The translations under genes and the position numbers were made by a program. Positions 38,200 to 43,592 of a stretch of DNA of 43,592 nt are shown in pieces. The stretch is from Oscillospiraceae bacterium (GTDB lineage Bacteria > Bacillota > Clostridia > Oscillospirales > CAG-272): positions 1 to 43,592 of the forward strand of contig SVTA01000006.1 in assembly GCA_015064005.1 (NCBI GenBank). The letters run 5' to 3'. The notes under the pieces were generated by a model. That model saw only the letters and a program-made list of their open reading frames with translations, had not been told where the DNA came from and did no database searches. Within the stretch, counting starts at the first letter, position 1. The number at the start of each line of letters is the position of its first letter.

Positions 38200-38781
38200 T
38201 CATTTCAGCGCGGCGTCTACCAGAGCCTTCAGCTGCTCGTAGGACATGGCGCTGGATTTGCTATAGGTGATCACACCGTCGCCGTCAATGATCACGGTGT
38301 AAGGATAATAACCGTCACCACCGTAAAGGGTATAGAAGGGGTTGCCCGCATCATTCACGCCAAAAATGATCTTGGAATCGGGGAAACGCTCGGTTACGTA
38401 CGCCTCCGGCTCATAGGGATCGGTGTCAGCGGGATAGCTGTGCACCGCAAAAACCGTAACCGTTTCGGCATATTCCGTGGCGATCCGGTCAAAATCCGGC
38501 AGCTCGTTACGGCAGGGTCCGCACCACGTGCCCCAGAAATTCAGCACCGTCACCTTGCCGCGATTGCTCGCTACGTTAAAGCTGCCCTCCGAGAGAAGCA
38601 GTGGGATATCAGCGCCGTAGGCAAGATTGCCCACGTTATTGCCGGGCACGGCGGTCACCTTATCGGGAGAAGGTAGCTCCCCACCGATAGGCGGCTCCTC
38701 CGGCTTCTGGCAGGCAGCAAGGCAAAGCAGCAGCACACCTGCCAACAAAAGGCAAAGTATTCTTCTCGTTTTCATAAGCAT
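38200..38781 (-). CDS. TlpA-family thiol-disulfide oxidoreductase lipoprotein
   Basis: 193 residues. Lipoprotein signal with lipobox LAAC (C24), a short linker, and a thioredoxin-fold TlpA domain whose active site is C87-G-P-C90 in NFWGTWCGPC; the cis-Pro region is YYPYTVIIDGDG. ATG 38781 is chosen because CGGAGG lies 6 nt upstream of it; the ATG at 38775 is possible. It begins immediately after the stop of the polyferredoxin-TlpA fusion gene (TGA at 38783-38785). A membrane-tethered reductase outside the membrane that could receive electrons from the fusion protein (inference). Confidence 0.93.
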   Translation of the reverse strand: MLMKTRRILCLLLAGVLLLCLAACQKPEEPPIGGELPSPDKVTAVPGNNVGNLAYGADIPLLLSEGSFNVASNRGKVTVLNFWGTWCGPCRNELPDFDRIATEYAETVTVFAVHSYPADTDPYEPEAYVTERFPDSKIIFGVNDAGNPFYTLYGGDGYYPYTVIIDGDGVITYSKSSAMSYEQLKALVDAALK

Positions 38782-38782
38782 C

Positions 38783-40345
38783 TCAATCCTCCGACTTGGC
38801 ATTGTGAAGCGCAAATTCCTGACCGTAGCAAAGGTTGCCCACGTTCTTGCCGGGCAACACCACTCCCGTGGCGGGCCCTGCGGAAAGTCCTTTTTCAATA
38901 TCGGCCTTCAGCTCCTCGTAGCTGACAGCGCCGGGATGTCGGGCAATGATCACGCCGTTCACGTCCAGCACGACGGTCATGGGGTAGGCACCGGGAAGGC
39001 CGCCCAGCGTCTGGAAATAGGCATCTCCCGCATCATAGCCAAAGAGCATCTTGCTCTCCGGGAAATGAGTGGCAATATAGTCGGGGGCCTTCTCCTTTTC
39101 AAACTCGGTATTGAGAATGAGGAAAGTGGCACGACCTTCAAACTCTGTGGCCAGCTCGTCGAAATGCGGCAGCTCGTCCTTGCAGGGCTGACACCACGTG
39201 CCCCAGAAATTGATCACCGTCACCTTGCCCTTGTTTTCTGCCGGGTTGAAGGTGTCTCCCACGGGCGTTTCGACGGGAGGCGTCACCGCCGTGCCCTTAT
39301 CCAGCACGTTATAGTAAACCAGCGCACCCGCAAGCAGGGAGAGCATCAGCACCACAGCCACGATCTTGGTGACAAATTTCCGTTTTGCCACGGTTTTCTC
39401 CACCCGTTCGGCGGCTTTTTTGGTTTCCTCGCCGGCATCCTTCTCGGCTGCAGCCTTCACCACGGCAATCTCGTTGGGCGCGATAAACACCTGCGAGCCC
39501 TTCCAGGAAATGGCCTTGGTGGGGCAGACGGAGATGCAGGCACCACAGTTGATGCACTCGTTGTCACCTACGTGGCGAATATCCATTTCGCATTTCGCGA
39601 GGCAGCGGCCACAATCAATACACTTGGGCTTTTCCAGCTTAATGCCGAAGAGGGCGATCTTGTTGAACAGGCCGTAAAGTGCCCCAAGAGGGCAGAAAAA
39701 GCGGCAGAAAAAGCGGTAAATGAAGATGGAGGCCACCACGAAGATGACCAGCAGCACGAATTTCCACGTAAACAGCGGCCCCAGCATGCCCAGCTGCTCC
39801 GCGTTATCGGGATGGCCAAGCAGACCGATACCACCGAGTAGCGTTCCGGAGGGGCAAATGTACTTGCAGAACGCGGGCAGGATCACGTCCTTCCCCGCAA
39901 ACATCAAGGGGAGAATGATCACAAACAGCCCAAGGATCACATATTTCAGATAGGATAGCACCCGCGTGACGCGGCTTTTCTTCAGTTTGGGGGTCTTGAT
40001 CTTATGTAGCAGATCCTGAATCAGACCAAACGGGCAAAGAAAACCGCAGATCCAGCGGCCAAAGAGCATACCGTACAGCAGAATAATGCCAAACATATAG
40101 GTGGCCGCCTTAGCATTGGAGGCGGTCAGCGCGTTCTGCAGCGCACCGAGGGGGCAGGCAGCGGAGGCACCGGGGCAGGAGTAGCAGTTGAGGCCGGGAG
40201 CGCAGATATTTTTGATTGGGCCTTGATAAATGCGCCCCTTGCCAAATCCCTTGAGATTGGCATTAAAGAGCAGCGCCGCATAGAGCTGAATGAGTCTGCG
40301 CTTGGTAGGCAGGTGTGCGCGTATCCAATTTTTCACTTTTCCCAT
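38783..40345 (-). CDS. NapH-type membrane polyferredoxin fused to a TlpA thioredoxin domain
   Basis: 520 residues. The N-terminal half is a NapH/NosR/YccM-like membrane iron-sulfur protein: Cys cluster C48-C54-C57-C64, TM helices at about 82-98, 132-149 and 190-212, and three CxxxCP[FSL]G turns (C100/C104, C160/C164, C214/C218). Two classical 4Fe-4S motifs follow (C242-C245-C248-C252 and C264-C267-C270-C274), then a charged linker, a TM at about 325-345 and an extracytoplasmic TlpA domain with W-C385-Q-P-C388. The C-terminus (NVGNLCYGQEFAL, 501-513) resembles the start of a second TlpA domain, cut short. Probably passes electrons from cytoplasmic ferredoxin-like donors to external thiols. ATG 40345 follows GAGGTGA, 11 nt after the upstream gene. 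Confidence 0.9.
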   Translation of the reverse strand: MGKVKNWIRAHLPTKRRLIQLYAALLFNANLKGFGKGRIYQGPIKNICAPGLNCYSCPGASAACPLGALQNALTASNAKAATYMFGIILLYGMLFGRWICGFLCPFGLIQDLLHKIKTPKLKKSRVTRVLSYLKYVILGLFVIILPLMFAGKDVILPAFCKYICPSGTLLGGIGLLGHPDNAEQLGMLGPLFTWKFVLLVIFVVASIFIYRFFCRFFCPLGALYGLFNKIALFGIKLEKPKCIDCGRCLAKCEMDIRHVGDNECINCGACISVCPTKAISWKGSQVFIAPNEIAVVKAAAEKDAGEETKKAAERVEKTVAKRKFVTKIVAVVLMLSLLAGALVYYNVLDKGTAVTPPVETPVGDTFNPAENKGKVTVINFWGTWCQPCKDELPHFDELATEFEGRATFLILNTEFEKEKAPDYIATHFPESKMLFGYDAGDAYFQTLGGLPGAYPMTVVLDVNGVIIARHPGAVSYEELKADIEKGLSAGPATGVVLPGKNVGNLCYGQEFALHNAKSED

Positions 40346-42698: not shown

Positions 42699-42704
42699 GA
42701 CGTC

Positions 42705-42739
42705 AGCCGCTCCGCGCTTGCACGGCGGAGCGGCTTTTT
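42705..42739 (+). terminator. Terminator of the permease gene
   Basis: AGCCGCTCCGC (42705-42715) / GCGGAGCGGCT (42725-42735) followed by TTTT. Confidence 0.93.
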
Positions 42740-42742
42740 CGC

Positions 42743-42812
42743 AAAAAGGTCGCCGCAAAGCATCTGTGGCGACCTTTTTCGATATGTTTCGGCGTGGCGT
42801 GCGCCACACAAC
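42743..42812 (-). ncRNA. Candidate ~70-nt small RNA
   Basis: A consensus promoter on the minus strand (42819-42847) would start transcription near 42812. The transcript has no ATG. It folds a GTGGCG/CGCCAC stem (42794-42807) and then a terminator hairpin AAAAAGGTCGCC / GGCGACCTTTTT (42779-42768 / 42754-42743). No minus-strand gene lies downstream before the converging permease gene. The simplest reading is an orphan small RNA. The same hairpin also has T runs on the plus strand and may back up the permease terminator. Confidence 0.6.
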
Positions 42813-42818
42813 AATATT

Positions 42819-42847
42819 ATTATAGCATAGTTAAATGCGCTTGTCAA
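42819..42847 (-). promoter_or_regulatory. Orphan consensus promoter on the minus strand
   Basis: TTGACA (42847-42842), 17-bp spacer, TATAAT (42824-42819) with a TGC extension: a full-consensus promoter with no protein gene in front of it. Confidence 0.85.
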
Positions 42848-42921
42848 GCAAAACTTGGTCAATCCTTACACTTTCTCCCTATTAAACAAAAATTTATTGT
42901 TTATTTCTTACAGTTTGCATA

Positions 42922-42950
42922 TTGCAAAGAGGCCAAAAATATGGTATACT
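42922..42950 (+). promoter_or_regulatory. Promoter of the large structured RNA
   Basis: TTGCAA (42922-42927), 17-bp spacer, TATACT (42945-42950) with a TGG extension; transcription start expected near 42957. Confidence 0.85.
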
Positions 42951-42974
42951 ACAAGTGCAAAGGAGGATAGGCCA

Positions 42975-42986
42975 ATGAACAAGTAA
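42975..42986 (+). CDS. Minigene 1 inside the large RNA (Met-Asn-Lys-stop)
   Basis: ATG AAC AAG TAA with AGGAGG (42961-42966) exactly 8 nt upstream. It is the first ribosome site on the predicted transcript, about 5 nt from its 5' end. The same 26-nt block recurs at 43089 with 22 identities. Whether ribosomes use it is unknown; a three-residue peptide is unlikely to be the product of interest. Confidence 0.4.
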   Translation: MNK

Positions 42987-43102
42987 GCATCGGCTCCCGG
43001 CCAAAGCACCCACCACGGATCCCGGCACGGGTAGCCAGAAAGCACGCTTTCCACCCTTTGCGGCATATAGCATGCCGTACACATGTACAGGAGGAAGGTC
43101 CA

Positions 43103-43114
43103 ATGTACAAGTAA
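43103..43114 (+). CDS. Minigene 2 inside the large RNA (Met-Tyr-Lys-stop)
   Basis: ATG TAC AAG TAA with AGGAGG (43089-43094) exactly 8 nt upstream, 128 nt after minigene 1. In both copies a CTCCC word lies about 30 nt downstream of the GGAGG and could pair with it, so the ribosome site may be switched on or off by folding. Confidence 0.4.
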   Translation: MYK

Positions 43115-43409
43115 TCAAACGACTCCCCATCCAAGGCGAGCGGATCGCTGTCAGGCACACGATGTGTAATATAGACGAGCATCCCCCCCTGCAGGAAACG
43201 CCTGCGGAGATGCATCCACCCCCGCCTGACGCAAAATAGCCAGCATGGGCAGTCAGCATCGCACCCTTACATGAAGGCATCACGCGAAAATCAACGGACT
43301 CTCGTTAGAGATATTGGAATGAATGAATCGTTTTCCGATGGTGAGTGCAGCGCAAGGGTAGCTTAGGAAAGAGAGGATCACAAAAGATGTTAGATACTAA
43401 GAGCGAACA

Positions 43410-43460
43410 GAAATGACCCTTGGTTGTTGTAAAGAAAGCAACCAAGGGTCATTTCTTATT
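43410..43460 (+). terminator. Terminator of the large structured RNA
   Basis: 17-bp perfect stem GAAATGACCCTTGGTTG (43410-43426) / CAACCAAGGGTCATTTC (43439-43455), then TTATTT. Confidence 0.95.
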
Positions 43461-43529
43461 TACTTGCTCACCACGCGCAAAAGGCGCGAGGCGGCAACGC
43501 GGGGACCAATCAACGCGAAAATAGGTTTG

Positions 43530-43556
43530 AGAGCGGTTTTTGCCGCTCTTTTTATT
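43530..43556 (+). terminator. Second terminator downstream of the large RNA
   Basis: AGAGCGG (43530-43536) / CCGCTCT (43543-43549) followed by TTTTTATTT. The ~70 nt between the two terminators hold a CGCGC-AAAAG-GCGCG hairpin but no gene or promoter that I can support. Confidence 0.85.
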
Positions 43557-43566
43557 TAATCTGCAC

Positions 43567-43592
43567 AAAAAAAAAAAAAAAAAGGGGTTTTT
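43567..43592. other. Low-complexity contig end
   Basis: Seventeen consecutive A (43567-43583), GGGG, then TTTTT at the very end. Most likely an assembly or sequencing artefact at a contig edge, not biology. Confidence 0.6.

Follow-up and report, generated by a model that had tools for sequence, protein, structure and literature searches.

Phage lambda bar minigenes consist of an SD sequence, an AUG, one or two codons and a stop codon. They cause peptidyl-tRNA drop-off, and under limiting Pth their expression depletes tRNA or halts growth. Three-codon reading frames are also found in leaders of antibiotic-resistance genes. Rli53, the leader of lmo0919 in Listeria, contains a three-amino-acid ORF that has been reported to sense lincomycin in cis (PMC8079631), and for Bacillus subtilis the vmlR leader is predicted to contain a three-codon uORF, which is called putative (PMC9226507). 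In the available portions of these reports, the three-codon ORF is placed in a structured RNA that is able to end at a terminator (PMC8079631, PMC9226507, PMC11550727). Dual-function sRNAs and trans-acting leader peptides, such as peTrpL (PMC7298713, available in part), yield a very short peptide from a short transcript. ROOL, GOLLD and OLE (Rfam; PMC12286853, likewise available in part) are large, isolated bacterial RNA genes without an assigned function. Among the matches listed for the open-access literature, the titles and the first lines of the abstracts describe no tandem three-codon ORFs in a free-standing RNA. An earlier listing as an unnamed candidate is possible, for example in the supplementary tables of a human-microbiome RNA survey (PMC8040213).

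We analysed a 43,592-nt stretch of DNA from an Oscillospiraceae bacterium (assembly GCA_015064005.1, contig SVTA01000006.1), hereafter the window. As judged from the comparison of homologous loci, what stands near its end is a free-standing RNA gene that some gut Oscillospiraceae and related bacteria carry (Table 1). Like Rli53 and vmlR, the RNA has a three-codon ORF with a ribosome site. However, those RNAs are cis leaders of an antibiotic-resistance gene, whereas no conserved or regulated downstream gene was found for 113 copies of the present RNA, which also sometimes repeats its tripeptide ORF and has a nonapeptide ORF that runs into the terminator. As in dual-function sRNAs, an independent transcript with a conserved small ORF is predicted. 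Unlike the peTrpL type, as described in the available part of that report, the RNA has its own promoter, several ORFs with a fixed length of three codons and no attenuated downstream operon. The SD-AUG-one or two codons-stop layout is that of the lambda bar minigenes, but the present units occur in Clostridia genomes, often in tandem and inside a long RNA, and are not known to be toxic. In contrast to ROOL, GOLLD and OLE, the RNA has no CM match, and it combines conserved coding frames with a variable body. It very probably represents a new family of translated RNA.

Table 1. Positions of the RNA gene, its promoters, reading frames and helices in the window.
Feature	Position	Strand	Basis
Divergent promoter, TTGACA-17-TATAAT, extended -10, 12/12 consensus	42819..42847	-	Sequence scan
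Predicted divergent mini-transcript, 70 nt, begins GTTG	42743..42812	-	Start assumed 6 nt after -10
Terminator hairpin of the mini-transcript	42743-42779	-	Sequence scan
Conserved AT-rich spacer separating the divergent promoters	42848..42921	.	Alignment A2, 30 loci
Long RNA (predicted transcript, ~500 nt)	42957..43460	+	Promoter and terminator; near full-length homologue L009, 77% identity
Long-RNA promoter, TTGCAA-17-TATACT, TG before -10	42922..42950	+	Sequence scan; conserved in homologues
Tripeptide minigene 1, ATG AAC AAG TAA (MNK*)	42975..42986	+	SD GGAGG 42962-42966; direct repeat with minigene 2
Small hairpin GGCAT/ATGCC between the minigenes	43062..43076	+	One double compensatory change in L009
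Tripeptide minigene 2, ATG TAC AAG TAA (MYK*)	43103..43114	+	SD GGAGG 43090-43094; repeat D1
Helix GTCAGGC (43150-43156)/GCCTGAC (43224-43230), closes internal domain	43150..43230	+	Covariation in L009
Proposed long-range helix ACCCTT (43263-43268)/AAGGGT (43354-43359)	43263..43359	+	By eye
Hairpin TCTC-GTTA-GAGA	43300..43311	+	Homologues with changed stems TCCC/GGGA, ATCTT/AAGAT, by eye
Nonapeptide ORF, ATG TTA GAT ACT AAG AGC GAA CAG AAA TGA (MLDTKSEQK*)	43387..43416	+	SD AGAGAGG 43370-43376
Terminator hairpin, nonapeptide stop codon (43414-43416) in 5' arm	43409..43456	+	Repeat and terminator scans

A preliminary description of this DNA claimed a discrete RNA gene of about 500 nt, framed by its own promoter and terminator and without a protein, and the sequence bears out the first part of this claim. 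The promoter of the long RNA is present with a 17-nt spacing and matches the consensus at 9 of 12 positions. Taken alone, this match is weak because two promoter-like sites were found in the region against 1.1 in shuffles, although the homologues keep the site. In 82 of 83 copies, its -10 element ends 23-33 nt 5' of the AUG that opens the first minigene. The terminator hairpin was also confirmed, with 18 perfect pairs in the repeat search and 20 in the terminator scan. In an RNAalifold prediction from an alignment of 34 sequences (A1), both sides had changed at 8 of the 19 predicted pairs of this helix. The contig stops just past a long A run (43565-43592), and the near homologue L009 extends beyond its own A run; therefore, the end of the window is probably an assembly break. 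Elsewhere in the window (38200-40345, minus strand), there are two adjacent thioredoxin-fold-like ORFs, the larger of which apparently also has ferredoxin-like cysteine motifs by eye.

Homologues were found in genomes titled Oscillospiraceae or Clostridia. A blastn search of 293 related genomes gave matches in 64, including the genome itself. Most of them cover about 42 nt near the 3' end (43367-43408), and L009 is the full-length match from the only other genome that has one. From 34 sequences of the 3' region we built a covariance model, R1, which was used with strict filters that lose weak matches. Counting the genome itself each time, R1 matched 74 of the 248 genomes sampled from its family, 43 of 297 from the order and 8 of 293 from the class. 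When named genomes were scanned with a pattern, at least 116 stretches matched. Among the 80 matches listed, the MAGs are titled Oscillospiraceae, Clostridia or Candidatus Faecousia, and many titles mention a ruminant or deer gut. Phages and plasmids gave no blastn match to the RNA, and a scan of viral contigs with the pattern of the 3' module gave none. L038, the sole viral contig with a match to the minigene pattern, was judged unrelated on reading part of it. The whole RNA gene is present in two or three copies within a few kb in G027:C45, G323:C2, G505:C15 and G219:C52, and the three copies in G027 lie within 1.4 kb. Three copies in L035 carry differing minigenes.

In this comparison of sequences, nothing in the RNA is as regular as its translation signals. 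A typical minigene unit at the 5' end reads GG-5 or 6 nt-CC-N-AUG-two codons-stop, and the homologues carry one to four units (SD, AUG, two variable codons, stop) near this end. Both minigenes of the window sit within a 40-nt direct repeat. A script was run on 113 non-redundant copies; the promoter and first AUG were placed in 83, and the other 30 gave no promoter or unit. The first ORF has three codons in 76 of the 83 placed copies, two codons in 5, eleven in 1 and twenty-three in 1, the last being a copy with a TTG start. As a comparison rate, 17% of all 954 ATGs found in the last 560 nt of the copies open a three-codon ORF, with the minigenes themselves counted in. The stop codons of the 76 three-codon first ORFs are TAA (66), TGA (9) and TAG (1). 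A regex that leaves the length free gave 145 units of the bar-type layout in 117 copies, 121 with three codons and 10 with two. By this regex, three-codon units number one in 59 copies, two in 19, three in 8 and none in 31, with tandem arrays in 27 copies; four three-codon units were found in L188 and L190. Among the 31 copies in which the regex gave no three-codon unit, 22 were read, and 7 of these do have one, with another spacing or a TTG start.

The length of the minigenes is far better kept than their sequence, since 76 of 83 have three codons while the stops and tripeptides vary. The regex listed 42 different tripeptides, at least one of which (MRQ) comes from outside the RNA. Codon choice is restricted: codon 1 is drawn from 11 codons, and codon 2 starts with A in 105 of 116 units. 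Therefore, a role of the sequence is also possible. This codon count admitted two- and three-codon ORFs only (116 and 8 of 124), and its lengths are no test. A small SD-to-AUG hairpin was considered for the minigenes and rejected because its third pair does not exceed chance (46 observed, 40.6 expected, P 0.09). On the minus strand of L273 (about 400-760), some units keep GAGGT..TTCCAA but have lost the AUG, and they stand beside three intact tripeptide units. These AUG-less units are either decaying repeats or a pre-AUG motif with a role of its own.

The second kind of reading frame is found at the 3' end. A micro-ORF of 8-12 codons, M(x)LDxKxxxx, was present in all 64 distinct copies examined, which came from 69 loci with L277 left out. 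To reduce the bias of our search pattern, this set was taken from CM matches, for the most part divergent copies: most belong to other families in the order or are weak matches within the same family, and three come from the class search. The universality of this ORF is partly ascertained, since both the CM and the search pattern came from copies carrying it. The stop codon is TGA in 33 copies, TAA in 26 and TAG in 5. The core, set by our own regex as [L/I]-[D/E]-x-K, is kept in 59 of the 64 copies, where five Leu codons and both codons each for Asp and Lys are in use, and is absent in 5. An extra codon follows the first ATG in 28 of the 59 core copies, and in 19 of those it is a second ATG. 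In L244, the frame is apparently shifted near the end of the ORF. In 62 of 64 copies the terminator holds this stop codon within its 5' arm, and the 3' arm compensates for a change of the stop codon (TGACCC/GGGTCA versus TAACCC/GGGTTA).

The core is kept with synonymous codons and an ORF of 8-12 codons is present in every copy examined, which is how a translated peptide would evolve. The core nucleotides are also highly conserved; therefore, a role of this stretch as RNA is possible. Nine residues are very small for a product, which counts against a peptide output. The view that the gene encodes no protein is not supported, as the window has three micro-ORFs with ribosome sites (MNK*, MYK* and MLDTKSEQK*), the last of which the preliminary description had overlooked, and both kinds stay ORFs in the homologues. 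The preliminary description had itself named a coding frame conserved across homologues as evidence against a non-coding RNA, and the 3' micro-ORF is such a frame.

The promoter of the long RNA stands back to back with a divergent one. Divergent promoters were sought in 81 of the 83 placed copies, those with enough upstream DNA. All 81 loci score 10-12 of 12, nearly all at one offset, and 70 of the 81 have a terminator-like hairpin at most 130 nt from this promoter; both are raw counts without a shuffled control. The 70 short divergent RNAs so predicted have a median length of 47.5 nt. An antisense pairing of the mini-transcript with its long RNA was rejected, since the duplex energies are alike for cognate (-30.4) and non-cognate (-30.3) pairs (P 0.58, 70 loci). 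In 118 genomes, a profile of the promoter block (R2) scored at least 57 bits at 41 places. No regulon with the complete block in common was seen: 40 of these places adjoin an R1 copy (matched by eye), and the remaining one, G051:C35, lies where a contig ends. The next match (46.7 bits, L277) stands 5' of an apparently ordinary protein gene. Weak AT-rich R2 matches occur in all 118 genomes, and short operators may be shared among them.

We tentatively favour a trans-acting peptide or translation-state device, since a downstream gene of the Rli53 or vmlR style is missing here. A structured riboregulator ranks second and is already unlikely, an attenuator and a titrating minigene array are each improbable, and a large ornate non-coding RNA comes last.

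The second of these readings is a trans-acting regulatory RNA, free-standing like 6S or CsrB, whose function would lie in the structured body, while the micro-ORFs would only recruit ribosomes that protect both the 5' and the 3' end against exonucleases. A free-standing gene without conserved neighbours and the lack of conservation in the tripeptide sequence agree with it, but the 3' peptide is conserved at the amino-acid level. The body between the two kinds of ORF is variable and the least conserved part of the RNA, which speaks against it together with the single full-length match in another genome. The 504-nt stretch folds better than its shuffles (z = -4.56). However, z is only -0.65 for the body without the terminator, and 27 of 100 shuffles fold as well. 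The excess stability is therefore that of the terminator, and exceptional folding does not extend to the body, which is no more stable than shuffled sequence. Folding energy was thus rejected as evidence for body structure, and the support for such structure comes from covariation only.

The helix that closes the internal domain, a three-way junction in the preliminary description, does exist. In L009, 3 of its 7 pairs have changed on both sides with all pairs kept, a count from two sequences only, for which 39 of 500 shuffles reach an equal score. Of the putative junction, the test covered this closing helix, together with the hairpin between the minigenes, which lies outside the junction and has one double change; RNAalifold on the 34 sequences predicted no helix besides the terminator. 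Other candidates were found by eye in the homologues. The proposed long-range helix reads CCTTTTGC/GCAAAAGG in several of them, as seen by eye. A hairpin TTCTC-loop-GAGAA stands 5' of the 3' module with both sides changed in some copies, again by eye; RNAalifold on A1 predicted neither it nor the hairpin at 43300-43311. A possible CAAGGGT/ACCCTTG pairing, a candidate antiterminator seen by eye in the window, is not kept in L013. The structured reading is also supported by a compact pseudoknot, CAC-G-GCG-GTG-NNN-CGC, which 52 of 177 copies carry and whose stems (CAC/GTG and GCG/CGC) both vary, including the replacements CAT/ATG, CGC/GCG and ACG/CGT. The motif gave 57 matches in total against a mean of 7.8 in letter-shuffled copies, but 5 of the 57 do not resemble the motif, and duplicates occur among the order-level copies. 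However, the exact motif is absent from the window's own RNA.

The genomic surroundings bear on the attenuator reading. The neighbours of 113 copies comprise 344 ORFs, which fall into 276 clusters, the largest with 5 members. The first ORF downstream shares the strand of the RNA in 56 cases and lies on the other strand in 43. We read 20 of the 55 close same-strand downstream ORFs by eye, 5 chosen as clustered and 15 at random. Several seem spurious, and those that can be recognised are metabolic or tRNA-charging enzymes unrelated to one another. Since neighbours, downstream gene and orientation are not conserved, the unit is most likely an independent gene and not a leader; as far as can be judged from these loci, the RNA is probably an autonomous gene. 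In an attenuator, a ribosome stalled on the tripeptide or nonapeptide ORF would block the terminator and turn on the downstream gene. The three-codon ORFs of Rli53 (PMC8079631) and the predicted uORF of vmlR (PMC9226507), as given in the available parts of these papers, are precedents, and such coupling would require a stop codon within the terminator arm, as seen here. However, without a conserved downstream gene or a fixed orientation, this reading is improbable, and an attenuator for one particular neighbour was rejected from the ORF clusters and the 20 downstream ORFs read.

Also improbable is a minigene array that, by analogy with bar-type minigenes, would titrate ribosomes, initiation factors or tRNAs through peptidyl-tRNA drop-off and so act as a translation brake or a defence device. 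The units of SD, AUG, two codons and stop, their tandem arrangement in 27 of the 117 copies, the patchy occurrence and the whole-gene tandem copies in some genomes would fit such an array. However, 59 of the 117 copies have a single unit by the regex, the nonapeptide is left unexplained, and the phage and plasmid searches and the scan of viral contigs for the 3' module pattern gave no match.

No known RNA class could be assigned. Rfam 15 gave 0 matches at the gathering score in the whole window; a permissive scan of 42700-43592 gave 15, all far below gathering and none to ROOL, GOLLD, OLE or raiA. In 20 homologous loci, Rfam found only tRNA and Gut-1, both outside the RNA. No tmRNA, with its tRNA-like domain and tag frame, was detected in the window by ARAGORN or Rfam. 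A large ornate RNA resembling OLE, GOLLD and ROOL, as in the preliminary description, is therefore the least probable reading. Size, isolation and some covarying helices agree with it, but neither the window nor the RNA of the homologous loci matches Rfam, the reading frames are conserved and the stability of the body is that of shuffled sequence.

In the reading that we prefer, although with rather less than even confidence, the gene is autonomous, its RNA is translated and belongs to a class that Rfam 15 lacks, and it would work through ribosome engagement. Ribosomes would start on the three-codon ORFs and be released at once, keeping the 5' end occupied. This occupancy may meter translation or shield the RNA from 5' decay, and the body would stay folded because no elongating ribosomes unwind it during loading at the 5' end. 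The 3' ORF would yield a short trans-acting peptide, and a ribosome terminating on the terminator arm would couple 3'-end formation to translation. We tentatively propose that the output is the nonapeptide, or else its translation as such, under the control of the leader, and any mechanistic step finer than this is less probable still. The fullest version, which we consider doubtful, is a gene of a new kind, whose free-standing RNA would load ribosomes in Clostridia: one or more three-codon ORFs would be timed docking sites for them, and the conserved nonapeptide, from an ORF that ends in its own terminator, would be a trans-acting signal of translational state, the whole being expressed from a conserved back-to-back pair of promoters.

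If this is true, the minigenes would be among the smallest known genes, three codons with their length and not their sequence under selection. Selection would act on initiating and terminating translation itself, and a conserved nonapeptide would be tied to its own terminator. The system would be directly testable, with one RNA, few start codons and one deletion. Such genes would then occur in an RNA family that is absent from Rfam and that roughly one in three genomes sampled from this gut family carries (74/248).
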